From Paracoccus sp. (in: a-proteobacteria) (GTDB lineage Bacteria > Pseudomonadota > Alphaproteobacteria > Rhodobacterales > Rhodobacteraceae), in contig JAGPGI010000042.1 of the NCBI GenBank assembly GCA_018056045.1, forward strand, positions 1-12,113: a stretch of 12,113 nucleotides of DNA, in the 5' to 3' direction. Of the stretch, positions 744 to 12,113 are shown piece by piece; the stretch's first letter is position 1; every line of letters begins with the position of its first letter. The translations under genes and the position numbers were made by a program. Below the pieces are notes generated by a model. The model was not told the origin of the DNA. It did not search any database and saw only the letters and a list, made by a program, of their open reading frames with translations.

Positions 744-2291
744 ATGTTGCGCATTTTCCGGGGGCTGCTGGCAGTCGTGATCGTCCTTGTGGCGGCGATC
801 TTCATCGCGCGGCTGATCTTTCCTTTGCCCGACATCTCGCAGCGCCCGCCCGAGACGGCGCTGCCGATCAGCGCCGGGACCCCGCTTGGTCAGCGCGTGC
901 TGGCCGCACAGGAGACCCATCCCGGCCTTTCGGGCGTCATGCCGCTGGCCCATGGCCATGATGCGCTGGCCAGCCGCCTCGCGCTGATCGACGAGGCGCA
1001 ATCCTCGGTCGATGCGCAATATTACATCTGGCACGACGACACTTCGGGGATCCTGCTGCTGGAGGCGCTGGACCGCGCCGCCAAGCGCGGGGTGCGGGTG
1101 CGGCTGCTGCTTGACGACAATGGCGTGCCGGGGCTGGACGGCTTCATGGCCGCGCTGAACCGGGACGAGAATTTCGAGATCCGGCTTTTCAATCCCTCGA
1201 CCATCCGCAGCCCCAAGATGGCGGGCTATGCCATTGATTTCATGCGCATGAACCGGCGCATGCACAACAAGTCGATGATCGTGGACGGGGCCGCCGCCAT
1301 CATCGGCGGGCGCAATATCGGCAATGAATATTTCCAGATCGGCGAGGCCTTCTATGTCGATATGGACGCGCTGGCGATCGGCAGCATCGTGCCCCGGACC
1401 ATGGAGGTCTTTGACCAGTACTGGAACGCCGCCTCGGTCTTCGAGATCGAAAACATCATCCCCGGCGAGGGCGACCGCGCCGGCTTTGACGCCCGCGTCG
1501 CCGAGGTCAGGAACAGCGCCGAGGCCAAGGAGTTGCTGGACGTTCTGGAAAACAGCGCCAGCCGTTTCGCCAGGGGCGACGTGCAGCTGGAATGGACGCA
1601 GGTTCAGCTTGTGGCCGACGATCCGGTCAAGGGTCTGGGCATTGCCCGGCGCGACCAGCTGATGATCACCCGTCTGGCCGAGATCCTTGGCCAGGTCGAG
1701 AAACGGCTGGATCTGGTCTCGGCCTATTTCATCCCCGGCAAGCAGGGCACGGCGTTTTTCGACGGGCTGGCGCGGTCGGGCAAGCAGGTCAATATCCTGA
1801 CCAATGCGCTTAACACCACCGACGTGCTGCTGGTCCATTCCGGCTATACCAAATACCGCCGCGAACTGCTGGAATCCGGCGTCCATCTTTATGAGCTGAA
1901 GCTGCGCGGCGGCGCCGCCCCGGGATCCGAGACACAGTTGAAGCCGCTGGGGCTTTCGGGCGCCAGCCTGCATGCCAAGACCTTCGCCGTCGATGAAAAG
2001 CGCGTCTTCATCGGATCGTTCAATTTCGATCCGCGCTCGGCCATGCTGAACTGCGAGATGGGCTTCCTGATCGACAGCCCGACCATGGCCAAAGAGGTCA
2101 GCACAGGCTTTGACGGGCCGCTGGACAAGGTCAGCTACCGCCCCGAACTGACCGCCGACGACCGCATGATGTGGCTTGAGACCGAGCCCTCGGGCAAGGT
2201 CCTGACCTGGCAGCAGGAACCGGGCGCGACCCTGTTCCAGCAGGTCACGCTGACGGTGATGGGGGTGCTGCCGATCGAGTGGATGCTCTGA
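744..2291 (+). CDS. Phospholipase D family protein, ClsC-like cardiolipin synthase
   Basis: A 515-residue membrane-anchored phosphatidyltransferase-type protein of the phospholipase D superfamily. Residues about 4-27 form one N-terminal hydrophobic segment. Two HKD catalytic motifs are intact: H174-N-K176 with D181 followed by GGRN (188-191), and H410-A-K412 with D417 followed by GSFN (424-427). The first motif ending in GGRNIGNEYF and a C-terminus ending LPIEWML are features I associate with the ClsC (YmdC) subgroup. E. coli ClsC makes cardiolipin from phosphatidylglycerol and phosphatidylethanolamine. A GGAGG ribosome-binding site at 734-738, five bases before the ATG, fixes the start. The gene stands alone and converges on the aldehyde dehydrogenase gene. 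No YmdB-like macrodomain partner is adjacent. It could instead be a phospholipase or another transphosphatidylase; the superfamily is certain, the substrate is not. Confidence 0.88.
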   Translation: MLRIFRGLLAVVIVLVAAIFIARLIFPLPDISQRPPETALPISAGTPLGQRVLAAQETHPGLSGVMPLAHGHDALASRLALIDEAQSSVDAQYYIWHDDTSGILLLEALDRAAKRGVRVRLLLDDNGVPGLDGFMAALNRDENFEIRLFNPSTIRSPKMAGYAIDFMRMNRRMHNKSMIVDGAAAIIGGRNIGNEYFQIGEAFYVDMDALAIGSIVPRTMEVFDQYWNAASVFEIENIIPGEGDRAGFDARVAEVRNSAEAKELLDVLENSASRFARGDVQLEWTQVQLVADDPVKGLGIARRDQLMITRLAEILGQVEKRLDLVSAYFIPGKQGTAFFDGLARSGKQVNILTNALNTTDVLLVHSGYTKYRRELLESGVHLYELKLRGGAAPGSETQLKPLGLSGASLHAKTFAVDEKRVFIGSFNFDPRSAMLNCEMGFLIDSPTMAKEVSTGFDGPLDKVSYRPELTADDRMMWLETEPSGKVLTWQQEPGATLFQQVTLTVMGVLPIEWML

Positions 2292-2303: not shown

Positions 2304-2325
2304 GCCGGCGGGTTTCCCCGCCGGC
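2304..2325. terminator. GC-rich hairpin between convergent genes
   Basis: A perfect 9-bp inverted repeat, GCCGGCGGG (2304-2312) and CCCGCCGGC (2317-2325), flanks a four-base loop. It lies between the stop of the phospholipase D gene (2291) and the stop of the convergent aldehyde dehydrogenase gene (2334). Position and stability suggest a bidirectional terminator. There is no T-tract on either side, so intrinsic termination is inferred rather than shown. Confidence 0.6.
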
Positions 2326-2333
2326 CAGAACCG

Positions 2334-3848
2334 TCATTGCAGGTCGGCGGGCAGCAGGCCTTCGGGAAAGTTCTGATAGCTGACCGGGCGCAGGAAACGG
2401 CGGATCGCCATGGTCCCGACCGAGGTCGCGCCGAAATTGGTCGAGGCCGGGTAAGGCCCGCCATGAACCATGGCGTCGCAGACCTCGACCCCGGTCGGGA
2501 AGCCGTTGACCAGCACCCGCCCGGCCTTGCGCTCAAGGATCGGCAAGAGCTTCTGCGCGTCGCCCAGATCGCCCGCGTCCATATGCAGCGTCGCGGTCAA
2601 CTGCCCCTCGAAACCGCGCGCCAGCCGCGCCATCTCGTCGACCGAGCCCACGCGCACGATCAGACCCAGCGGACCGAAAACCTCTTCGCCAAGCGCGTGA
2701 TCCTGAAGATAGGCGTCGGCGGTGGTCTCATAGAGGTTCGGGCTGGCCTCGCGCCCGGCCGAGGGGGTGGTATGGACCTTGCGCACGGCATTGCGCGTCT
2801 CGAAACGCTCCTTGCCGTCGCGATAGGCTTTGGCGATGCCATCGGTCAGCATGGTCTGCGGGCCGACCTTTTCCAGCGCGGCAGTGGTCGCGGCGACGAA
2901 CTGGTCGGCATCGGCGCCGTCCAGCACCACGGCGATGCCGGGATTGGTGCAGAACTGCCCCGCGCCCATGGTCAGCGAGCCGGCCCAGCCCTGACCCAGC
3001 GCCTCGGCCCGCGCGGCCATGGCCTCGGGCAGCAGGAACATCGGGTTGACCGAGCCCAGCTCGCCAAAGAAGGGGATCGGCTCGGGGCGCGCCGCACAGA
3101 GATCAAAAAGCGCCCGGCCCCCGGCCAGAGAGCCGGTAAAGCCCACCGCCTTGATCAGCGGATGCGTCACCAGCGCCGAGCCGACGTCGCGCCGCCCGCC
3201 CTGAATCAGGCTGAAGACGCCGGGATGCAGGTTGCAGGACCTGATCGCCGCGTGAATGGCCTCGGCGACGATCTCGCCGGTGCCGGGATGGGCGGAATGG
3301 CCCTTGACCACGACCGGGCAGCCGGCGGCCAGCGCGGCGGCGGTGTCGCCGCCCGCGGTCGAAAACGCCAAGGGGAAATTCGAGGCGCCAAAGACCGCGA
3401 CCGGGCCGATGGGACGTTCCATCAGCCGGATATCGGGGCGCGGCAGCGGCTGGCGGTCGGGCAGCGCGGCGTCATGGCGGCGGTCCAGATACTCGCCCTT
3501 GCGGATATGGCTGGCGAACAGCCGCAACTGGCCCACGGTGCGGCCACGCTCGCCCTGCAGGCGGGCCTCGGGCAGGCCGGTTTCCTGACTGCCGATCTGG
3601 GTGATGGCCTCGGCGCGGGCCTCGATCTCGTTGGCGATGGCGTCGAGGAAATCGGCGCGGGTCTCGCGGGTGGAATAGCCATAGGACCAGAAGGCGTCCT
3701 CGGCCGCCGCGCAGGCGCGATCCACCAGATCGACGGTGCCGACGGCGAAATCATGCGCCGGACCATGCGCCGGCTCCGACCGGAACGTCTCTGCGCCGCC
3801 AACCCAGTCGCCGGCGATAAGGTGCTTGCCATGGGGGGTGAAGGTCAT
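2334..3848 (-). CDS. 2-oxoglutarate-semialdehyde (2,5-dioxovalerate) dehydrogenase-like aldehyde dehydrogenase
   Basis: A 504-residue NAD(P)-dependent aldehyde dehydrogenase, most like the branch that oxidises 2-oxoglutarate semialdehyde to 2-oxoglutarate. That reaction is the last step of non-phosphorylating pathways for galactarate/glucarate, L-arabinose, D-xylose or hydroxyproline. Visible family residues are FGASNFPLAF with the oxyanion Asn157, GFTGS (236-240) in the cofactor fold, the general base Glu263 in FGELGSVNP, the nucleophile Cys300 in GAGQFCTNPG, and EEVFGPLGL (388-396). The FGASNFPLAFSTAGGDTAAA segment and QFCTNPG context fit this branch better than betaine-aldehyde or methylmalonate-semialdehyde enzymes. 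The start is ATG at 3848, six bases after an AGGAG site (complement of 3855-3859). A TTG three bases earlier in frame is too close to that site. The gene is divergent from the KdgF-like cupin, with 163 bp between them. The exact substrate is inferred from the family. Confidence 0.85.
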   Translation of the reverse strand: MTFTPHGKHLIAGDWVGGAETFRSEPAHGPAHDFAVGTVDLVDRACAAAEDAFWSYGYSTRETRADFLDAIANEIEARAEAITQIGSQETGLPEARLQGERGRTVGQLRLFASHIRKGEYLDRRHDAALPDRQPLPRPDIRLMERPIGPVAVFGASNFPLAFSTAGGDTAAALAAGCPVVVKGHSAHPGTGEIVAEAIHAAIRSCNLHPGVFSLIQGGRRDVGSALVTHPLIKAVGFTGSLAGGRALFDLCAARPEPIPFFGELGSVNPMFLLPEAMAARAEALGQGWAGSLTMGAGQFCTNPGIAVVLDGADADQFVAATTAALEKVGPQTMLTDGIAKAYRDGKERFETRNAVRKVHTTPSAGREASPNLYETTADAYLQDHALGEEVFGPLGLIVRVGSVDEMARLARGFEGQLTATLHMDAGDLGDAQKLLPILERKAGRVLVNGFPTGVEVCDAMVHGGPYPASTNFGATSVGTMAIRRFLRPVSYQNFPEGLLPADLQ

Positions 3849-3957
3849 CAAAGGCTCCTGTGTGGTCGGATGGGAAATGCCGGTGCCCTTTGGCCCGGTG
3901 CCCGCACAGAGGGGTCAAATCACACGGCTTTTGTCAAGTCGCCACCGGCCCGGGCGC

Positions 3958-3986: not shown

Positions 3987-4011
3987 AAACCACCAGCCAA
4001 GGAGATCCGCC

Positions 4012-4326
4012 ATGTCCCTGCCCGTCTATCCGGTCGCCCGTCCCGATGCCGGCGTCGAGCGTCAGGTCCTGTCGCATTCGCCCGAACTGATGGTGGTCTC
4101 GTTTCGCTTTCAGGCCGGCGCCACTGGCGCGCTGCACAGCCATCCGCATGTGCAATCGACCTATGTCGCGCGCGGCCGGTTCCGGTTTTTCCGCGACGGC
4201 GTGGCCCATGACCTGAAGCCGGGCGACAGTCTGGTGATCGGCCCGCAGGTCGTGCATGGCTGCGAATGCATCGAGGCGGGCGAGCTGATCGACACCTTCA
4301 CCCCGCGCCGCGACGATTTTCTCTGA
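4012..4326 (+). CDS. kdgF: KdgF-like cupin (uronate linearisation family)
   Basis: A 104-residue single-domain cupin. The metal-binding set is visible as H42 and H44 in LHSHPHVQSTYV, Q48, and H82 in VVHGCE. The second cupin motif is LKPGDSLVIGPQVVHG (68-83). The C-terminus TFTPRRDDFL resembles the SP-R-DFL ending of KdgF proteins. KdgF converts 4,5-unsaturated uronates released from pectin or alginate oligomers to the linear ketouronate, a step that otherwise proceeds spontaneously. An AAGGAGAT ribosome-binding site at 3999-4006 supports the start. It is divergent from the 2-oxoglutarate-semialdehyde dehydrogenase gene and converges on the MFS gene with only nine bases between the stops. Small cupins are easily misassigned, so the fold is firm but the KdgF function is a moderate-confidence inference from motif spacing, the C-terminus and the sugar-acid context. 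Confidence 0.72.
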   Translation: MSLPVYPVARPDAGVERQVLSHSPELMVVSFRFQAGATGALHSHPHVQSTYVARGRFRFFRDGVAHDLKPGDSLVIGPQVVHGCECIEAGELIDTFTPRRDDFL

Positions 4327-4335
4327 CCGCACGGG

Positions 4336-5508
4336 TCAGCGCCGCCCCCGGACCTGACGCAGCGCCCGGATGCCGAAGGCGGGGCCAAGGGCCATCACCG
4401 CCAGCGTCACCGGCCAGCCCACCGCCGCCGCAAGCAGCGGCGTCAGTTGCACGGTCAGCACCGTCAGCGCAAATCCCAGCGCGGTCTGCATGGCCATCAG
4501 GCTGCCGACCAGATGCGGCGGCGCATGATCGGCGATCAGCGCCGAGAATTGCGCGCTGTCAGGAACGATGGCTGCGCCCCAGACCAGCAACAGCAGCATG
4601 ACCAGCCAGACCGGCCCGCCAAAAGCCGCCGCCGTCGCCAGCGCGGCGCCCCCCGACAGCCACATCGCCCCGGCGGCGATCCGCGCCTTGCCATGGCGGT
4701 CCGCAAGCCAGCCCGCCGGCACGCAGAAGAACGCCCCAAGGGCGATGCTGGCAAAGGCGGTCAGCGCCGCCAGCCGCTCGGCCCCCGGACCCGGCATATG
4801 GGCGCCATAGCTGGTCGCGGCGATGACGCCGATCCATGACCACAGGGCATAAAGCTCCCACATATGGCCAAGATAGCCGCCGGTCGCGGCGCGGATATTG
4901 CGGTCGGTCCAGAGCAGCCGGATCGCGCGCGGATCGAATGCCAGCGCCTGCGCGTGATCGGGGCCGATGGCAAGGCAGGGCGCCAGCGCCGCCGCCAGCA
5001 ACGAGGCCAGCGCCGCCGCCCCCACAACCACGCGCCATTCCGCGCCGCCAAGGAACGCCGCCAGATGCGGCAGCGCCGAGCCAAGCGTCACCGCCCCCAC
5101 CAGCATGCCCACCAACAGCCCGCGATCATCGCGGCCCCAGCCGACCATGATCTTCATGCCCACCGGATAGATGCCGGCAAAGCCGATGCCGGTCGCCAGC
5201 CGCAGCGCGACCGAGGCGGGCGTGCCCGGCGCGATCACCAGCAGCGCGGCGGTGCTCAGCGCATTGATCAGCGCCGCCAGCATCATCACCCGGCGCGGAT
5301 CGAAGCGGTCGGCGATGCCGGTCACCGCAAAGCCAAAGGCGCCCAGCACGAAACCCGTCTGCACCGCCGATGACAGCAGCGCCTGCAAGCCGGGGCTGAT
5401 GCCGCGCTCGCGGGCGATGTCCATCACCGCAGCCCCGGTCGCGAACCATGGCGACATGCCGCAAATGACGGTCAGGCACAGCAAAAGCGTGGCGCGGCGT
5501 TTGGTCAT
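4336..5508 (-). CDS. MFS transporter, candidate sugar importer of the rhamnose operon
   Basis: A 390-residue major facilitator protein with about 12 predicted membrane segments. Loop motif A is present in both halves: GIADRFDPRR (64-73) and GWLADRHGK (266-274). A central WELYALWSW stretch (217-225) lies in what is probably TM7. It follows rhaK on the same strand with no terminator visible between them, so it is probably co-transcribed with the rhamnose genes. Its substrate cannot be read from the sequence. Because the usual rhamnose ABC transporter is missing from this locus, import of L-rhamnose (or a related sugar) is a reasonable hypothesis. The start at 5508 puts the first hydrophobic segment right after a basic MTKRR. 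An in-frame ATG at 5565, nine bases after the rhaK stop, would add 19 residues. Neither has a strong ribosome-binding site, so the start is uncertain. Confidence 0.85.
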   Translation of the reverse strand: MTKRRATLLLCLTVICGMSPWFATGAAVMDIARERGISPGLQALLSSAVQTGFVLGAFGFAVTGIADRFDPRRVMMLAALINALSTAALLVIAPGTPASVALRLATGIGFAGIYPVGMKIMVGWGRDDRGLLVGMLVGAVTLGSALPHLAAFLGGAEWRVVVGAAALASLLAAALAPCLAIGPDHAQALAFDPRAIRLLWTDRNIRAATGGYLGHMWELYALWSWIGVIAATSYGAHMPGPGAERLAALTAFASIALGAFFCVPAGWLADRHGKARIAAGAMWLSGGAALATAAAFGGPVWLVMLLLLVWGAAIVPDSAQFSALIADHAPPHLVGSLMAMQTALGFALTVLTVQLTPLLAAAVGWPVTLAVMALGPAFGIRALRQVRGRR

Positions 5509-5574
5509 GCCCGCCAGAGCGCATGAAACCGCCACCGATGTCCAGACCGCAATCCCTCCGGGCATGCCGCCCGG

Positions 5575-6918
5575 CTAGAGCGTCGCCCGCCAGCGCGCGG
5601 CATAGTCGGCAAGGCGCGGATCGGGCGCGACCGCACGGGTCTGCGGCGCCGAGGCCGCCTTGACGCAAAGCATCGCCGCGCCCGCCGAGGTGCCGGTGGC
5701 CGAGGATGCGATCTCGACCCCCTCGGGACGCAGCGTGGCCAGCATGGCGCAATAATCGGGGTTGCGGGCAAAGGGGCCCTCGATGATCGCGGGACCGCGC
5801 GCGCCGGTCAGGCCCAGACAGGTATCGGTCATCAGCGCCAGATACCATGACAGCGCCGCCATGCGTTCGCCGCCGGTCCCCGGCGCGGCGGTCCAGCGCA
5901 TGGCGCGACCCTGAAACGGCCCCGATCCCGGCTCGACCGCCGGCAGGATCATCGCCCCCGCCCGCAGGATTGCGGCGCGGTCGGCCTCGGTCGCGGGGCT
6001 GGCGTCGCCCTTGCGGATCAGCTCATATTCGCGCCCGCCCATGAAGCGGGCCGAGGGCACCGGCTGTCCCAGCGCGTTCACATTGACCAGCACATCGCGC
6101 GCCGGGTCCAGCGCCACCGCATCCCCCGCCATCGCCATCGAGACCACCCATGTCCCGGTCGAAATGACCGAAAACGCCCCCCGCCGCCCCAGCACATAGG
6201 GGTAAAGCGAGGCATTGCTGTCATGGATGCCGACCGCGACCGGCGTATCCGCGCGCAGCCCCGCCCGCGCCGCCAGATCCGGTCGCAGCCGCCCCAGCAC
6301 GTCATTGGCCCGCCGCGCCGGGGCCATCTTTCCCGCCAGCCCCAGCCTTTCGACCAGATCCGAAAACTGCCCCCGCCACGGGTCCCACAGATCGGTGTGG
6401 CAACCCAGCGAGGTCACATCGCTGGCCAGCTCTCCGGTCAGGCGCCAGCCCCAATATTGCGGATAGGTCAGCACATGGCCCAGCCGCGCGGCCAGCCCCG
6501 GATCCTGATGCATAAGCCAATGCAGCTGCGCCCCCACATTCAGCCCCATCGGCAGGCGCGGCGCGCCGGTCTGCGCGAAATCCGGGCGGATCGCGTCATA
6601 CTCCGCCGCCAGATCGTTCGGGCCGGGATGTTCGTAATCCAGCATCGGCGCGGCCAACCCACCCTTGCCGTCCAGGACCACGCATGAGGCGCCATGCGTG
6701 GTCACCGATATCGCGTCGATGCCGTGGCGGGCGTGGAATTCGGCCAGATGGTGCAGGAAGAAATCCCAATGCCCCTCAAGGTCGAAATGCGGCCAGGGCG
6801 GGCCGGGCAACACGCGGTTGGGGCGTGTGACGACGGCGATCTCGTCCAGCGTCTCGCCCTCGACCAGCGCCAGTTTCGCGTTGGTCTTGCCGATGTCGAT
6901 GACGGCAATGCGGGTCAT
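5575..6918 (-). CDS. rhaK: FGGY-family L-rhamnulose (rhamnose) kinase RhaK
   Basis: A 447-residue FGGY carbohydrate kinase. It should phosphorylate L-rhamnulose to L-rhamnulose 1-phosphate in the cytoplasm. The N-terminal phosphate-binding loop is DIGKTNAK (8-15). The catalytic base is probably Asp233 in GIHDSNASLYPY, and STGTW (253-257) forms the ATP-site loop. Its place after the mutarotase (seven bases between the mutarotase stop and this ATG) matches rhaU-rhaK of Rhizobium leguminosarum. In that organism, published genetics show the kinase is also needed for activity of the RhaSTPQ ABC transporter. That transporter is absent from this locus, so any such coupling must be lost or act through another system. 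The ribosome-binding site is weak, suggesting translational coupling to rhaU. The substrate is assigned from context and family. Confidence 0.9.
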   Translation of the reverse strand: MTRIAVIDIGKTNAKLALVEGETLDEIAVVTRPNRVLPGPPWPHFDLEGHWDFFLHHLAEFHARHGIDAISVTTHGASCVVLDGKGGLAAPMLDYEHPGPNDLAAEYDAIRPDFAQTGAPRLPMGLNVGAQLHWLMHQDPGLAARLGHVLTYPQYWGWRLTGELASDVTSLGCHTDLWDPWRGQFSDLVERLGLAGKMAPARRANDVLGRLRPDLAARAGLRADTPVAVGIHDSNASLYPYVLGRRGAFSVISTGTWVVSMAMAGDAVALDPARDVLVNVNALGQPVPSARFMGGREYELIRKGDASPATEADRAAILRAGAMILPAVEPGSGPFQGRAMRWTAAPGTGGERMAALSWYLALMTDTCLGLTGARGPAIIEGPFARNPDYCAMLATLRPEGVEIASSATGTSAGAAMLCVKAASAPQTRAVAPDPRLADYAARWRATL

Positions 6919-6925
6919 GGCCGGA

Positions 6926-7243
6926 TCACGCCAGGTAGAACATCGGGATCAGCGGCACCGCCACCGGCGCCCCGTCCGGATGCGTCACCATGATATCGGC
7001 CATATGCGCCCACCAGCGCCGCATCACCGGATCAAGGGGCAGATCGTCCATGCGGTGATCCGCAGGCCGCGACAGCATGCCAAACAGCGCATTGGTTTCC
7101 GGGTCCAGATGGATCGAGTAATCGCTGATCCCGGCCTGATGCAGCAGCGTCACCAGTTCGGGCCAGATCGCGTCATGGCGGCGGCGGTATTCCTCGGCCA
7201 TCCCCGGGTTGAGCTGCATGCGAAAGGCATATTTCTGCGTCAT
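6926..7243 (-). CDS. rhaM: L-rhamnose mutarotase
   Basis: A 105-residue dimeric alpha/beta-barrel-type mutarotase that interconverts alpha and beta anomers of L-rhamnose, supplying the anomer used by the isomerase. The family signature is clear: [20 protein letters not shown] at the start, [10 protein letters not shown] with the likely catalytic His23, [17 protein letters not shown], then the [11 protein letters not shown] segment (75-85) with paired tryptophans. Its length is typical of RhaM/RhaU (about 104 residues). The start ATG at 7243 overlaps the TGA of the upstream permease remnant in an ATGA arrangement, so translation was probably coupled to rhaQ originally. Starting further upstream in this frame (to 7399) would translate the permease remnant out of frame and is rejected. 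In Rhizobium the same gene is called rhaU. Confidence 0.95.
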
Positions 7244-7395
7244 TTCCTGATCATCCCCCAAAGCCGCGGCGGCGCGATCACCCCGATCAGCAGCACCCCC
7301 ACGATAAACGACATGACGATGCCCGGCACGTTCAAAAGCCCCTGCCCGAATGTCACCAGCCCCATGACCAGCGCCGCGATGGGCGCTGATGCGCG
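7240..7395 (-). pseudogene. rhaQ: Remnant of rhamnose ABC transporter permease (C-terminal tail of RhaQ)
   Basis: Between the rhaR stop and the rhaM start the minus strand reads 51 codons plus stop without interruption. They encode a hydrophobic segment containing [18 protein letters not shown], then [17 protein letters not shown] and a basic end, WGMIRK. This looks like the last membrane helices and cytoplasmic tail of a ribose/rhamnose-type ABC permease. It sits exactly where RhaQ ends in the Rhizobium order rhaRSTPQUK. The remaining 80-90% of the permease, and the genes for the binding protein, ATPase and first permease, are absent. No start codon with a ribosome-binding site is visible. 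The fragment lies in the same frame as rhaR, separated from it only by the rhaR TGA (7398-7396). It may persist because it carries the translation-initiation context of rhaM. Family by eye, not by search. Confidence 0.82.
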
Positions 7396-8202
7396 TCACT
7401 CCTCCGCGCGCTTTTGCCGGTCGGACGCCCGCGCCTCGACCACGATCAGCCGGACCTCGGCCGCCTCGAGCATCCGGGCGGCGCGGTCGTCGATGCCGTC
7501 ATCGGTGATGACGGTGTGAATGCGGGTCAGCGGGCACAAGAGCAGGCTGGAGCGCTGGCGGAATTTCGAGCTGTCGGCCAGCACCACCAGCTCATCGGCC
7601 TGATCAATCAGCTTCTGCTCGGCCTGAACCAGCAGCGGATCGCCCTCCATCAGGCCCAGGGGACCAAGGCCGCGGCAGCCCATGAACATGCGCCTGGCAT
7701 AGAAATGGCTGGAGCCATCGGCGTCGAACGGCGACAGGATGATGTTCTGTTCACGATAGATCGCGCCCGCCGGCACCAGCACGGTGTTTCTGGACTGCTT
7801 CAAGAGATGCTCGGCGATCGGAAAACTGTTGGTAAAGACCTGCAATCGCTTGGTGGTCAGCGGATGCACCATCTGGAATGTGGTGGTGCCGCCATTGACG
7901 ATGATCGCGTCGCCATCCTCGCACAGATCCACCGCCGCCTGCGCGATGGCGCGCTTTTCGGCGATATGCAGGGTCTGGCTCACCGCAAAGGGCCGGGCAT
8001 TGATGCCGACGAATTGCGGCGGCGTGATCGCTTCGGCCCCGCCCCGCACGCGCCGCAGCTTCTTCATCATATGCAACTGCGCGATGTCGCGCCGCACCGT
8101 CGCCTCGGATGCGCCGGTAAGCGCGCAAAGATCGGCCACCGTGACCACCGGCCGTTCCTGCACCGCCGAGAGGATAATCCGATGGCGTTCGGTTTCCAGC
8201 AT
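7396..8202 (-). CDS. rhaR: DeoR-family transcriptional regulator of the rhamnose genes
   Basis: A 268-residue DeoR-type regulator. The N-terminal winged helix spans about residues 1-57. It includes [20 protein letters not shown] and the recognition-helix motif [15 protein letters not shown], the hallmark of the family. The C-terminal sugar-phosphate-sensing domain contains [11 protein letters not shown], a typical ligand-loop GGTT, and LADSSKF. In Rhizobium leguminosarum the orthologue is the negative regulator of both rhamnose operons, and the divergent arrangement here fits that. The start at 8202 has an AGGGGG ribosome-binding site (complement of 8207-8212) four bases away. An in-frame start 17 codons upstream lacks family support. 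The C-terminus runs directly into the permease remnant after a TGA, so this gene borders the deletion. The effector (rhamnulose, its phosphate or a catabolite) is not evident from the sequence. Confidence 0.92.
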
Positions 8203-8248
8203 GTCGCCCCCTGCATATCGCGCAAGGCTTCCATCCGCTTCAAGCATT

Positions 8249-8265
8249 GTCAATCATTTTCAATC
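8249..8265 (+). promoter_or_regulatory. Candidate RhaR operator 1 (rhaR side)
   Basis: The 17-mer GTCAATCATTTTCAATC contains two TCAATC half-sites (8250-8255 and 8260-8265) spaced ten bases, one helical turn, apart. The same 17-mer, with a single mismatch, recurs in inverted orientation at 8304-8320. Read toward rhaR, its outer edge contains TTGACA (8253-8248), a consensus -35 hexamer, so bound repressor would occlude rhaR transcription. A good -10 box at the right distance is not visible. Confidence 0.6.
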
Positions 8266-8303
8266 GCAGAAAGTCATTCTGCGCCTGCACAATGCGCGTT
8301 TAT

Positions 8304-8320
8304 GATTGAAATTGATTGAC
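8304..8320 (-). promoter_or_regulatory. Candidate RhaR operator 2 (rhaD side)
   Basis: The plus strand reads GATTGAAATTGATTGAC, whose complement matches operator 1 at 16 of 17 positions. It holds two GATTGA half-sites (8304-8309 and 8314-8319), again ten bases apart. It lies 55 bp from operator 1, roughly five helical turns, in inverted orientation. Its outer edge merges into a possible rhaD -35 box. Tandem half-sites with oppositely oriented copies suit a DeoR-type oligomeric repressor controlling both divergent operons. Confidence 0.6.
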
Positions 8321-8345
8321 GCTGGCCCGGACGGGCGTGTATCCG
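8316..8345 (+). promoter_or_regulatory. Candidate rhaD promoter
   Basis: TTGACG (8316-8321) and TATCCG (8340-8345), 18 bases apart, form a plausible sigma-70 promoter. It would give a leader of about 40 bases before the rhaD ATG. The -35 box overlaps the end of operator 2, consistent with repression by RhaR. Assigned by eye; the -10 box is a poor match. Confidence 0.35.
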
Positions 8346-8389
8346 AAACAGCAAGGCGGCCCCGGCCGGTCGCCTCAGCGGAGGCATCC

Positions 8390-10492
8390 ATGACCCAGAC
8401 CAATACCGGAAATTTTCTTGAAAATCTGTGGGACAGCGACAAGTCCGCGTCGATGAGCGAATCCGGAAAGCTGCTTTACCGCTCGAATCTGCTGGGCTCG
8501 GACAAGCGGGTGACGAATTACGGCGGCGGCAATACCTCGGCCAAGGTGATCGAGACCGACCCGCTGACCGGCGAGGCGGTCGAGGTGCTGTGGGTCAAGG
8601 GCTCGGGCGGCGATATCGGCTCAATGAAGCTGGACGGCTTTTCGACGCTTTACATGGACAAGCTCCGCGCCCTGAAAAGCAAGTATCGCGGCCCCGCCTT
8701 CGAGGATGAGATGGTCGGCTATCTGCCCCATTGCACCTTTGCGCTGAACCCGCGCGCGGCCTCCATCGACACGCCGCTGCATGCCTACGTGCCGAAAAAG
8801 CATGTCGATCACGTCCATTCCGACGCCATTATCGCCATCGCCGCATCCGTGAATTCCCGCGCGCTGACGGCCGAGATCTTCGGGAATGAGATCGGCTGGC
8901 TGCCATGGAAAAAACCGGGCTATGAGCTGGGCCTGTGGCTTGAGAAATTCGCCACCGAAAACCCTCAGGCCAAGGGCTGCGTGCTGGAAAGCCACGGGCT
9001 CTTCACCTGGGCCGACACGGCCGAGGACTGCTATCAGACCACTCTCGACATCATCAACAAGGCCGCGGCATGGCTTGAGGCGCGGATGGCGGGCAAGCCT
9101 GCATTCGGCGGAGAAAAGCGTCCCACCCTGCCCGAGGCGCAACGCCGCGAGATCGCTGCCCGGCTGATGCCGGTGATCCGCGGGCTGATCTCCGGTGATC
9201 GCCACAAGGTCGGGCATTTCGACGACCAGAAGGCGGTGCTGGACTTTGTCGGCTCGAACATGCTCGACGAGCTGGCGCCCCTTGGCACCTCCTGTCCCGA
9301 CCATTTCCTGCGCACCAAGATCCGGCCGCTGGTCGTCGATTTCGACCCGGCGAACCCCGATATTCAGGCGACGATTGCCGGGCTGGCGGATGCCGTCGCC
9401 GCCTACCGCGCCGATTACGCCGCCTATTACGCGCGCTGCAAGCACCCCGACAGCCCGGCTTTGCGCGACCCGAATGCGGTCGTCTATCTGGTGCCGGGCG
9501 TCGGCATGCTGACATTCGCGCTGGACAAGGCGACGGCCCGCATCTCGGGCGAATTCTATGTCAACGCCATCAACGTGATGCGCGGCGCCTCCGGCGTCTC
9601 GACCTATCAGGGCCTGCCCGAGCAGGAGGCCTTCGATATCGAATACTGGCTGCTTGAAGAGGCGAAACTCCAGCGCATGCCCAAGCCGAAATCGCTGGCG
9701 GGCCGCATCGCGCTGATCACCGGCGGCGCCGGCGGCATCGGCGCGGCGACGGCCGAGCGTTTCCTGCGCGAAGGCGCCTGCGTCATGCTGGCCGATATCG
9801 ACGCCGCCGCGCTCGATGAGGTGACAAGCGGCTTTGCCGCGCGCCACGGCAGGGACATGGTGCGCGGCGTGCAGATGAACGTCACCGACGAGGCACAGGT
9901 GATCCGCGCCTATGCCGATCTGGCGGTCGAATTCGGCGGCATCGACATTCTGGTCTCGAATGCCGGCATCGCCTCATCCGCGCCCATCGAGGAGACCACT
10001 CTGGCCTTGTGGAACCGCAACATGGACATCCTGTCCACCGGCTATTTCCTTGTCTCGCGCGAGGCGTTCCGGATGTTGCGGGTGCAGGATATCGGCGGCG
10101 CGGTGGTCTTTGTGGCCTCGAAGAACGGGCTCGCCGCCAGCCCCAATGCCAGCGCCTATTGCACCGCCAAGGCGGCGGAAATCCATCTGGCCCGCTGCCT
10201 CGCGCTTGAAGGCGCCGGCGCCGGCATCCGCGTCAATGTCGTCAATCCCGATGCGGTGCTGCGCGGATCGAAAATCTGGGCGGGCGAATGGCTGGATCAG
10301 CGCGCCGCGACCTATCAGACCGACAAGGAGGGGCTTGAGGAAATGTATCGCCAACGCTCGATGCTGAAGCGATCCGTGCTGCCCGAGGACATCGCCGAGG
10401 GCGCCTATTTCCTTGCCAGCGACCTCAGCGCGAAATCGACCGGCAATATCCTCAATGTGGACGCTGGCAACGTCCAGGCATTCACCCGGTGA
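8390..10492 (+). CDS. rhaD: Bifunctional rhamnulose-1-phosphate aldolase/short-chain dehydrogenase
   Basis: A 700-residue fusion protein. Residues about 25-430 are a class II (zinc) aldolase with GGGNTS (45-50), metal ligands H141 and H143 in HVHSD, and H202 in ESHG. This half cleaves L-rhamnulose 1-phosphate to dihydroxyacetone phosphate and L-lactaldehyde. Residues about 435-700 are a short-chain dehydrogenase with TGGAGGIG (444-451), an acidic NAD-preferring D469, NAG (524-526), Ser577, and Y590-x3-K594. This domain probably oxidises the lactaldehyde to lactate, as shown for related RhaEW fusions. Length and architecture match the known aldolase-dehydrogenase family, and no catalytic residue is missing. 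A GGAGG site at 8380-8384 sets the ATG at 8390. A TTG 28 codons upstream would lie inside operator 2. It is the first gene of the operon, followed directly by rhaI. Confidence 0.95.
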   Translation: MTQTNTGNFLENLWDSDKSASMSESGKLLYRSNLLGSDKRVTNYGGGNTSAKVIETDPLTGEAVEVLWVKGSGGDIGSMKLDGFSTLYMDKLRALKSKYRGPAFEDEMVGYLPHCTFALNPRAASIDTPLHAYVPKKHVDHVHSDAIIAIAASVNSRALTAEIFGNEIGWLPWKKPGYELGLWLEKFATENPQAKGCVLESHGLFTWADTAEDCYQTTLDIINKAAAWLEARMAGKPAFGGEKRPTLPEAQRREIAARLMPVIRGLISGDRHKVGHFDDQKAVLDFVGSNMLDELAPLGTSCPDHFLRTKIRPLVVDFDPANPDIQATIAGLADAVAAYRADYAAYYARCKHPDSPALRDPNAVVYLVPGVGMLTFALDKATARISGEFYVNAINVMRGASGVSTYQGLPEQEAFDIEYWLLEEAKLQRMPKPKSLAGRIALITGGAGGIGAATAERFLREGACVMLADIDAAALDEVTSGFAARHGRDMVRGVQMNVTDEAQVIRAYADLAVEFGGIDILVSNAGIASSAPIEETTLALWNRNMDILSTGYFLVSREAFRMLRVQDIGGAVVFVASKNGLAASPNASAYCTAKAAEIHLARCLALEGAGAGIRVNVVNPDAVLRGSKIWAGEWLDQRAATYQTDKEGLEEMYRQRSMLKRSVLPEDIAEGAYFLASDLSAKSTGNILNVDAGNVQAFTR

Positions 10493-11772
10493 TGGCCATG
10501 ATCGACCCGCATCTGATCGAGGCCGAAAACGCCCGCCACGGCACCCATCTGGCGCGGGATTTCGACGCGCTTGGCGAAAGGCTCGGCCGCATCGGCCTCG
10601 ATATCGAGGCGCTGACGCGGCGCGCCATGGATTTCGGCGTCGCCATTCCCAGCTGGGGCACCGGCACCGGCGGCACCCGCTTTGCCCGCTTTCCCGGCGC
10701 GGGCGAGCCGAACGGCATCTTCGACAAGCTCGACGATTGCGGCGTCATCCACCAGCTCAGCGCCGCCACCCCCCGCGTCAGCCTGCATATCCCGTGGGAC
10801 AAGGCCGACCCCGCGCTTTTGCGCGAAAAGGCCGAGGCGCTGGGGCTGGGCTTTGACGCCATGAACTCGAACACGTTCCAGGATCAGCCGGGACAGCGGC
10901 ACAGCTACAAATTCGGCTCGCTGGCCCACAATGCCCCCGCGACCCGCCAGCAGGCCATCGAGCATAATCTGGAATGCATCGAGATCGGCCGGCAGATCGG
11001 CTCGAAGGCATTGACGGTCTGGATCGGCGACGGCTCGAACTTTCCCGGCCAGACCTCCTTTACCCGCCAGTTCGAGGACTATCTGACCTCGATGAAGGCG
11101 ATCTATGCCGGCCTGCCCGATGACTGGCGGATTTTCAGCGAACACAAAATCTATGAGCCGGCCTTCTATTCGACCGTGGTTCAGGACTGGGGCACCAGCC
11201 TGATGACCGCGCAGGAACTGGGCCCCAAAGCGCAATGTCTGGTCGATCTGGGCCATCACGCGCCCAATGTGAATATCGAAATGATCGTCGCCCGGCTGAT
11301 CCGCGCCGGCAAGCTGGGCGGGTTTCATTTCAATGACAGCAAATATGGCGATGACGATCTGGACAGCGGCACCATCGACCCGTTCCGGCTGTTTCTGGTC
11401 TTCAACGAGCTGGTCGAGCTGGAAAATACCCCCGGCCTGAACCTGTCGCACATGATCGACCAAAGCCACAATGTCACCGACCCGATCGAAAGCCTGATCG
11501 TCTCGGCCTGCGAGATCCAGCGCGCCTATGTTCAGGCCTCGCTGGTCGATGCCGCGGCGCTGGGGGAATACCGTCACCAGAATGACGCGCTGATGGCGGC
11601 GGCAACGCTGCGCGCGGCCTTCCGCACCGATGTCGAGCCGATCCTCGCCATGGCGCGGCTGCGCGCGGGGGCGGCCATCGACCCGATCGCGGCCTATCGC
11701 GCCTCGGGCTATCGCGCCCGCGTCGCGGCCCTGCGGCCCAAGGCGTCAGGCGGCGGCGGCGGCATTGTCTGA
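10492..11772 (+). CDS. rhaI: L-rhamnose isomerase (RhaI type)
   Basis: A 426-residue metal-dependent isomerase converting L-rhamnose to L-rhamnulose. It resembles the Pseudomonas stutzeri/Rhizobium RhaI type rather than E. coli RhaA. Metal-ligand and catalytic residues known from the P. stutzeri enzyme are recognisable. They are E217 in FSEHKIYEPAF, D252 and H255 in LVDLGHHAPN, H279 with D287 and D289 in GGFHFNDSKYGDDD, and D323 in HMIDQSH. The ATG at 10492 overlaps the rhaD stop by one base (TGATG), so translation is probably coupled. A second in-frame ATG at 10498 has a GGTGAT run upstream and is equally possible. The C-terminus ends in a Gly5 run encoded by five GGC codons (11749-11763), probably a flexible tail. 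It closes the rhaD-rhaI operon. Confidence 0.95.
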   Translation: MAMIDPHLIEAENARHGTHLARDFDALGERLGRIGLDIEALTRRAMDFGVAIPSWGTGTGGTRFARFPGAGEPNGIFDKLDDCGVIHQLSAATPRVSLHIPWDKADPALLREKAEALGLGFDAMNSNTFQDQPGQRHSYKFGSLAHNAPATRQQAIEHNLECIEIGRQIGSKALTVWIGDGSNFPGQTSFTRQFEDYLTSMKAIYAGLPDDWRIFSEHKIYEPAFYSTVVQDWGTSLMTAQELGPKAQCLVDLGHHAPNVNIEMIVARLIRAGKLGGFHFNDSKYGDDDLDSGTIDPFRLFLVFNELVELENTPGLNLSHMIDQSHNVTDPIESLIVSACEIQRAYVQASLVDAAALGEYRHQNDALMAAATLRAAFRTDVEPILAMARLRAGAAIDPIAAYRASGYRARVAALRPKASGGGGGIV

Positions 11773-11812: not shown

Positions 11813-12113
11813 TCAGGGCGCGACCGGACCGGCGGCCCCGACAAAGCGATAGCGGCAGTTGAACTGGTGGCGCGCCATGACCGCGATGCGGCCATCGCCA
11901 TGGCGCAGCACCGCATCCCCGGCCGGCACCTCGATCTCGGCCGCGTCCTCGCCGATGCGCAGCCGGCAGTCATCGGGCAGGCAGATCGCCTGCAGCGGCG
12001 CATAGCGCGGCTTGAAGACCCTTGCGTCGCAAAGCGGCAGATGCGTCCGCTCGAACGCGGCGCGGTCGGCCTCAAAGCGGTTCCCGCTCTGGTCGCGCAG
12101 CATCATCTGCACC
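11813..12113 (-). CDS. Unidentified protein, C-terminal part (5' end outside window)
   Basis: A minus-strand frame is open from the window edge to a TGA at 11815-11813, giving about 100 residues. A GTG at 12112 and ATG codons at 12106 and 12103 are possible starts, but the frame may continue beyond the window. I do not recognise the protein. It appears soluble, with no membrane segment. Two stretches 64 residues apart share a pattern: LRDQSGNRF...AAFERTH near the start and LRHGDGRIAV...HQFNCRY near the end (L, R, G, R, F and an aromatic or His at equal spacing). This suggests a duplicated small beta unit, loosely like PGDYL-type domains. It converges on rhaI with 40 bp between the stops. Coding status is supported by GC-rich third positions; any function is unknown. 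Confidence 0.6.
   Translation of the reverse strand, partial: VQMMLRDQSGNRFEADRAAFERTHLPLCDARVFKPRYAPLQAICLPDDCRLRIGEDAAEIEVPAGDAVLRHGDGRIAVMARHQFNCRYRFVGAAGPVAP

Follow-up and report, generated by a model that had tools for sequence, protein, structure and literature searches.

A rhizobial-type rhamnose locus in a Paracoccus contig that has probably lost its ABC importer genes through one deletion

In Rhizobium leguminosarum and Sinorhizobium meliloti, the genes for rhamnose utilization are arranged as rhaRSTPQUK and, divergently, rhaDI. In their comparative analysis of 55 genomes, Rodionova et al. (2013, PMC3870299) report that every other alphaproteobacterium examined has orthologues of the ABC importer RhaSTPQ in its rhamnose operon; they also describe RhaY, an MFS sugar-porter rhamnose transporter candidate of Actinomycetales and Bacillales. 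Another publication (PMC9025865) describes an S. meliloti rhaP deletion mutant that fails to grow on rhamnose, apart from very weak growth that takes more than 10 days, as well as an rhaT insertion mutant that does not grow on it, with some residual uptake in both. According to the same source, the RhaK kinase of R. leguminosarum is required for uptake and has the ABC ATPase RhaT as an interaction partner.

The locus described here was analyzed in a window of 12,113 bp, which is an entire contig of a metagenome-type assembly of Paracoccus sp. (3.04 Mb, 491 contigs, 71.8% complete). The features of the window are as follows.

744-2291, plus strand: PLD-like gene
2334-3851, minus strand: aldehyde dehydrogenase gene
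4066-4326, plus strand: cupin gene
4336-5565, minus strand: MFS transporter gene (Pfam MFS_1), candidate for a substitute importer
5575-6918, minus strand: rhaK, FGGY sugar kinase, intact (profile match and relatives' loci)
6926-7243, minus strand: rhaU, L-rhamnose mutarotase, intact (profile match and relatives' loci)
7240-7395, minus strand: C-terminal remnant of rhaQ, comprising 5 spacer codons, 46 rhaQ codons, and the stop (direct alignment)
7379-7398, minus strand: deletion joint, with the rhaR stop and 15-17 nt of the rhaR-rhaS spacer fused to rhaQ
7396-8253, minus strand: rhaR, DeoR-family regulator, intact (profile match and relatives' loci)
8306-10492, plus strand: rhaD, bifunctional rhamnulose-1-phosphate aldolase/dehydrogenase, intact
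10489-11772, plus strand: rhaI, rhizobial-type L-rhamnose isomerase, intact

Gene calls and family matches confirm the order rhaR...rhaU-rhaK with divergent rhaD-rhaI, which the first-pass annotation had compared with that of R. leguminosarum. A DeoR-type rhaR divergent from rhaD-rhaI is present, as is the rhaU mutarotase gene followed by the rhaK kinase gene, and there is no RhaSTPQ importer between rhaR and rhaU. The locus shares with those of R. leguminosarum and S. meliloti the order and divergence of rhaR, rhaU, rhaK, rhaD, and rhaI, together with the five protein families, but it differs in the absence of rhaS, rhaT, rhaP, and 86% of rhaQ, as well as in the MFS gene that follows rhaK. 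It is, consequently, a deleted derivative of the rhizobial-type rha locus rather than a complete member. Past rhaI, a minus-strand frame (11813-12112) is cut by the end of the contig; it has no match in Pfam and none in the subset of loci compared.

The remnant of rhaQ is a minus-strand frame of 51 codons (7395-7240) that lies in the frame of rhaR directly after its TGA, and its own TGA overlaps the ATG of rhaU. The frame reads RASAP, followed by a permease C terminus. Its last 46 codons align with residues 285-332 of the 333-residue RhaQ of locus L032 (genome G049) at 83% amino-acid identity (E 2.2e-17, own-genome protein search), and their nucleotide identity to the 37 other loci of the genus is 78.5-89.4% (local BLAST). 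In the alignment of these 37 loci, the part derived from rhaQ starts at the ATC of IAAL, leaving 46 rhaQ codons. The remnant is thus homologous to the RhaQ C terminus and, with 46 codons compared to 333 in L032, is not a full-length permease. Since neither Pfam nor NCBIfam yielded a match when the 51 residues were searched alone, its identity rests on direct alignment. The permease-like C terminus noted earlier between rhaR and rhaU, and its ATGA overlap with the mutarotase start, are both corroborated, whereas the reported length of 51 permease codons is reduced to 46, the first five belonging to the rhaR-rhaS spacer. Four of the 46 residues, including a change of L to Q and a change to P, are absent from all 37 relatives, each of which has 0-2 unique residues in the same columns. 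Such residues are as would be expected of a decaying remnant, although this reading is weakened by the general divergence of the lineage, described below.

Comparison with L032 defines the extent of the loss. The end of rhaR matches at 89% until just past the stop codon, and the tail, together with the start of rhaU, matches the 3' end of rhaQ and rhaU at 84%; in L032 these two stretches are separated by ~4.4 kb, and the segment lost comprises rhaS and its ribosome-binding site, all of rhaT and rhaP, and 86% of rhaQ. By eye, 14 of 17 bases just after the rhaR stop equal the rhaR-rhaS spacer of L037. When the joint bases were scored against 33 loci of the genus (L065-L068 left out), the alignment score had a median of -3 and a best value of 1 for the rhaR-rhaS spacer, versus a median of -6 and a best value of -3 for the bases preceding the rhaQ tail. 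As the alignment favors the spacer over the pre-tail part of rhaQ, the deletion is judged to begin, on its left, ~15-17 nt beyond the rhaR stop. The initial BLAST had suggested a 9-base "filler" at the joint, but comparison of the spacers of relatives led to its rejection. At the joint, a possible microhomology spans 2-3 bp (AT or CAT): the lost rhaQ codon may have been GTG or GTC, both of which are present in relatives, and the length follows from which of them it was. In the breakpoint regions (±60 bp) of the 37 relatives, the longest common word has a median of 7 and a maximum of 9 bases, compared to 7 and 12, respectively, for a random-place control. The earlier proposal that several kilobases were cleanly deleted from within the locus agrees with this simple joint and with the length of the segment missing relative to L032; the end proposed in the last part of rhaQ is upheld, while the other end, taken to be the rhaR stop, has to be moved into the spacer. 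Through the deletion, a GTG located on the rhaR stop also comes to share the frame of rhaU, creating a minus-strand frame of 157 residues (6926-7399). As a candidate for a new fusion protein this frame was set aside as probably due to chance, none of the 120 listed of 3832 matches covering more than 72%.

The intact arrangement is the rule among relatives. Within the genus, a RhaR match (E<=1e-60) was found in 38 of 125 genomes, its own included, and the order rhaK-U-Q-P-T-S-R, with rhaD and rhaI, is present in all 37 others, in which rhaSTPQ is intact between rhaR and rhaU. The absence of rhaS, rhaT, rhaP, and most of rhaQ, as originally reported, is therefore substantiated, and the present locus is the only one of the 38 without rhaS-T-P-Q. 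In L063, the 3' end of rhaR and the rhaR-rhaS spacer are unlike those of other loci of the genus, with the match stopping at residue 276 and odd sequence beyond, perhaps a small insertion. In the family sample, a RhaR match was present in 102 of 394 genomes, again including its own. In 29 of the 101 others, seen with 1.5-kb flanks only, rhaS and then rhaT always follow rhaR, and 63 of the 72 fetched loci contain contiguous Q-P-T-S-R. The nine that remain consist of five at contig ends (L129, L136, L151, L193, and L195, with L151 and L193 uninformative on the transporter), two with divergent ABC sets at 36-42% identity (L194 and L196), one rearranged rha locus in which the ABC genes are present, with rhaS-T-P-Q-U on the strand opposite rhaR and rhaK (L192), and one lone RhaR-like gene (L191). 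The class sample gave RhaR matches in 9 of 385 genomes, its own included; in the eight others, rhaS adjoins rhaR in five, and in three rhaR-rhaK is followed by a divergent ABC set. Three class-level loci in which rhaR adjoins rhaK (L307-L309) were considered as further losses and rejected, since downstream of rhaK they carry a divergent ABC set. An order variant with rhaR-rhaK and then a divergent ABC set is seen in L313, L314, and L315, from one other alphaproteobacterial genus, and a second RhaR-like copy (L312), in one of the five class genomes with rhaS beside rhaR, has no rha gene within its short flank. Among the titles listed by literature searches on rhaSTPQ and on gene or transporter loss for rhamnose in Paracoccus, none reports a transporter-less rhamnose locus.

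A second reduced locus was identified on a circular plasmid of a cultured strain, Rhodobacter sp. CZR27 (NZ_CP023549.1), the best among the 30 listed of 228 plasmid records matching 4330-8300, with the rhaR and rhaK matches joined in one place. In this locus (L302, 6724-11197), rhaD is divergent from rhaR-rhaK, and the annotated kinase begins 7 bp after rhaR. Searches by tblastn of the 20 kb fetched from the plasmid detected no RhaS, RhaP, RhaQ, RhaU, or RhaI, and RhaT-like ATPases only at 25-28%, none of them a RhaT orthologue. The annotation of this stretch includes further ABC transporter genes, the nearest ~2.7 kb past the end of rhaD, beside a peptidase gene. RhaSTPQ is absent between rhaR and rhaK, as in the present locus, but rhaU and rhaI are also absent from the 20 kb and no rhaQ tail was found there. 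Since the plasmid is circular and from a cultured strain, its reduction is not a metagenome artefact; it looks like an independent event and shows that such reductions do occur.

The PLD, aldehyde dehydrogenase, and cupin genes recur in the nearest relative by flank, G046 (99% complete), with nucleotide identities of 93% over 1-2310, 94% over 2315-3868, and 88% over 4001-4326. The similarity stops at the cupin stop codon (4326), with other genes beyond it, and G046 has no rha genes: a 51-base match is all that was found, with no RhaI and no RhaR match. It follows that, in this lineage, everything from the MFS gene to rhaI forms an accessory block, the far end of which lies beyond the contig; the deletion is located in this block, not in the region common to this lineage and the nearest relative. 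In G046, a further gene of ~700 bp, which by eye encodes a regulator of the GntR/FadR type, separates the PLD gene from the aldehyde dehydrogenase gene; it is absent at 2310-2315 and in G033.

Rhamnose uptake by another route, or by a transporter encoded elsewhere, was part of the first-pass annotation. In the 71.8%-complete assembly, no orthologue of RhaS, RhaP, or RhaQ was found at another location, with best matches of 29%, 38%, and 38%, respectively (RhaQ apart from the tail), so that the whole-genome check it had suggested for RhaS came out negative, and the RhaT-symporter family (PF06379) was not found either. The assembly also contains at least four further ABC permease loci of sugar type (C174, C483, C485, and C354; 29-38%), which could, in principle, carry rhamnose, and a second copy of rhaSTPQ could lie in the missing part of the genome. 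Among the matches listed, there are RhaU clusters 93-99% identical to the present RhaU, one of them with 22 members, on contigs of up to 2.6 kb; intact loci may be found among these contigs.

The other-route part of that proposal gains a candidate which it had overlooked, the MFS gene. It lies immediately downstream of rhaK in the same orientation, separated from it by 9 bp if the longest frame is taken and by 66 bp if the likely start at 5508 is used. Its Pfam and NCBIfam matches are to generic MFS_1 and, weakly, to organic-ion carriers, with no sugar-porter model among them. Like RhaY (PMC3870299), it is an MFS gene adjoining rha genes, but RhaY is a sugar-porter candidate and the present protein matches MFS_1 rather than a sugar-porter model. 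A full-length homologue was not detected in 138 other rha loci, of which 29 end before rhaK and some others at contig ends. Orthologues with 59-77% identity are present in eight other genomes of the genus, and none of the eight neighbourhoods contains rha enzyme genes; in the six of these genomes that carry rha genes as well, the orthologue maps elsewhere in the genome, away from the rha loci that were fetched. Co-localization is thus not conserved in related genomes, and for this reason the MFS protein was rejected as an established rhamnose carrier. Genomes with such an orthologue (>=59%) have rhaR in six of eight cases, and the other 116 genomes of the genus in 31 (Fisher p 0.009, shared ancestry ignored). 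An MFS homologue is also near the rha clusters of Saccharopolyspora (4 of 80 loci: L261, L266, L271, and L281, all of one genus), which by eye appear to have a sugar porter of their own. In MAG locus L219, the MFS homologue is near a 71-73% homologue of the PLD gene, suggesting that it resided beside PLD before the arrival of rha, although G046 and G033 lack this gene at their PLD loci. From this arrangement, we read the MFS gene as a resident neighbour, with the rha block now behind it and co-directional through rhaK.

The remaining rha genes have open frames and are under apparent purifying selection, in accord with the earlier description of the catabolic genes as intact. Pairwise dN/dS values, which have little power for recent change, are 0.11 for rhaR, 0.15 for rhaD, 0.17 for rhaI, 0.23 for rhaU, and 0.26 for rhaK between the present locus and 33 relatives (distant loci L065-L068 left out), compared to 0.11, 0.13, 0.14, 0.17, and 0.26, respectively, among the relatives themselves. 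Unique residues amount to 4.47% in RhaI (rank 1 of 38, median 1.29%) and 4.76% in RhaU (rank 3), and they are not unusual in RhaR, RhaD, and RhaK (ranks 24, 16, and 17). In protein trees, the terminal branches of RhaR, RhaD, RhaI, RhaU, and RhaK rank 7, 6, 2, 3, and 16 of 38, all five above the median. These long branches, together with the unique residues of RhaI and RhaU, indicate that the lineage diverges generally, which makes the argument from decay of the tail weaker. The rha enzymes appear to be maintained, with at most a slight relaxation in RhaI and RhaU.

An assembly artefact, in which the assembler skipped a transporter region that is intact or varies among strains and so joined rhaR to rhaQ, was originally regarded as the main alternative to a deletion. 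The assembly is indeed fragmented and of metagenome type, and the joint is present in one contig only. However, assemblers as a rule bridge such gaps via a repeat common to both ends, and the breakpoint regions of the 37 relatives have no common word longer than 9 bases; the tail has residues unlike any of the 37 intact RhaQ proteins, and rhaS, rhaP, and rhaQ have no orthologues on other contigs, making such a collapse quite unlikely. Replacement of the ABC importer by the MFS carrier is possible. That the gene behind rhaK was captured as the rhamnose importer, freeing the ABC system for loss, would fit its position and strand, the lack of full-length homologues in the other rha loci, and the co-occurrence of its orthologues with rhaR. 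Such a swap is nevertheless unlikely, considering that in related genomes the orthologues are located away from rha genes, that L219 points to residence before rha, that the matches do not include a sugar porter, and that the Saccharopolyspora clusters appear to have their own. A fuller scenario, in which the rha operon landed beside an unrelated MFS gene and recruited its product as a carrier, after which the four genes of the ABC pump were lost and RhaK no longer had its second function as partner of the ABC ATPase, seems rather improbable.

The pathway as a whole might instead be dying, with the locus in the course of being lost and the enzymes still present only because little time has passed since the deletion. 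The absence of rha genes from G046, the elevated unique residues in RhaI and RhaU, and the lack of further rha genes in the CZR27 locus are consistent with this tentative reading, and selection on the pathway may already be relaxed; on the other hand, the five rha genes are open with low dN/dS, although pairwise values are a weak guide to recent change. Whatever the fate of the pathway, it is likely that a standard alphaproteobacterial locus (rhaRSTPQUK divergent from rhaDI) lost its ABC importer by one deletion of ~4.4 kb. The deletion would span from the rhaR-rhaS spacer to rhaQ codon ~287, and for the joint observed the most likely mechanism would be illegitimate recombination at the 2-3 bp microhomology. 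Because its right end is inside rhaQ, the overlap of the rhaQ stop with the rhaU start was retained. The shortened rhaR-(tail)-rhaU-rhaK unit, now with the MFS gene behind it, would still be transcribable from the divergent promoter. Judging by the named homologues, the known importer would be lost, and rhamnose, if still used, would enter via another carrier. The S. meliloti mutants (PMC9025865) likewise have the ABC importer removed, with downstream genes still transcribable in the rhaP deletion, but they were made in the laboratory, whereas the present deletion is natural and larger.

Deletion of the importer genes thus is probably a genuine, lineage-specific event in an accessory operon and probably neutral or mildly deleterious. 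Loss of the transporter is uncommon yet mechanistically ordinary, being otherwise seen in our surveys only on the CZR27 plasmid, in a different form. Together, these two loci are exceptions to the alphaproteobacterial RhaSTPQ rule of PMC3870299. Since RhaK interacts with RhaT, a locus with RhaK but no ABC importer shows the part of RhaK that is kept once its partner is gone. If the importer swap were true, it would reveal a kind of rhamnose carrier other than the DMT, ABC, and sugar-porter ones of Rodionova et al., as well as a natural test of the dual role of RhaK. A complete set of rhamnose enzymes, as found here, does not imply the use of rhamnose.
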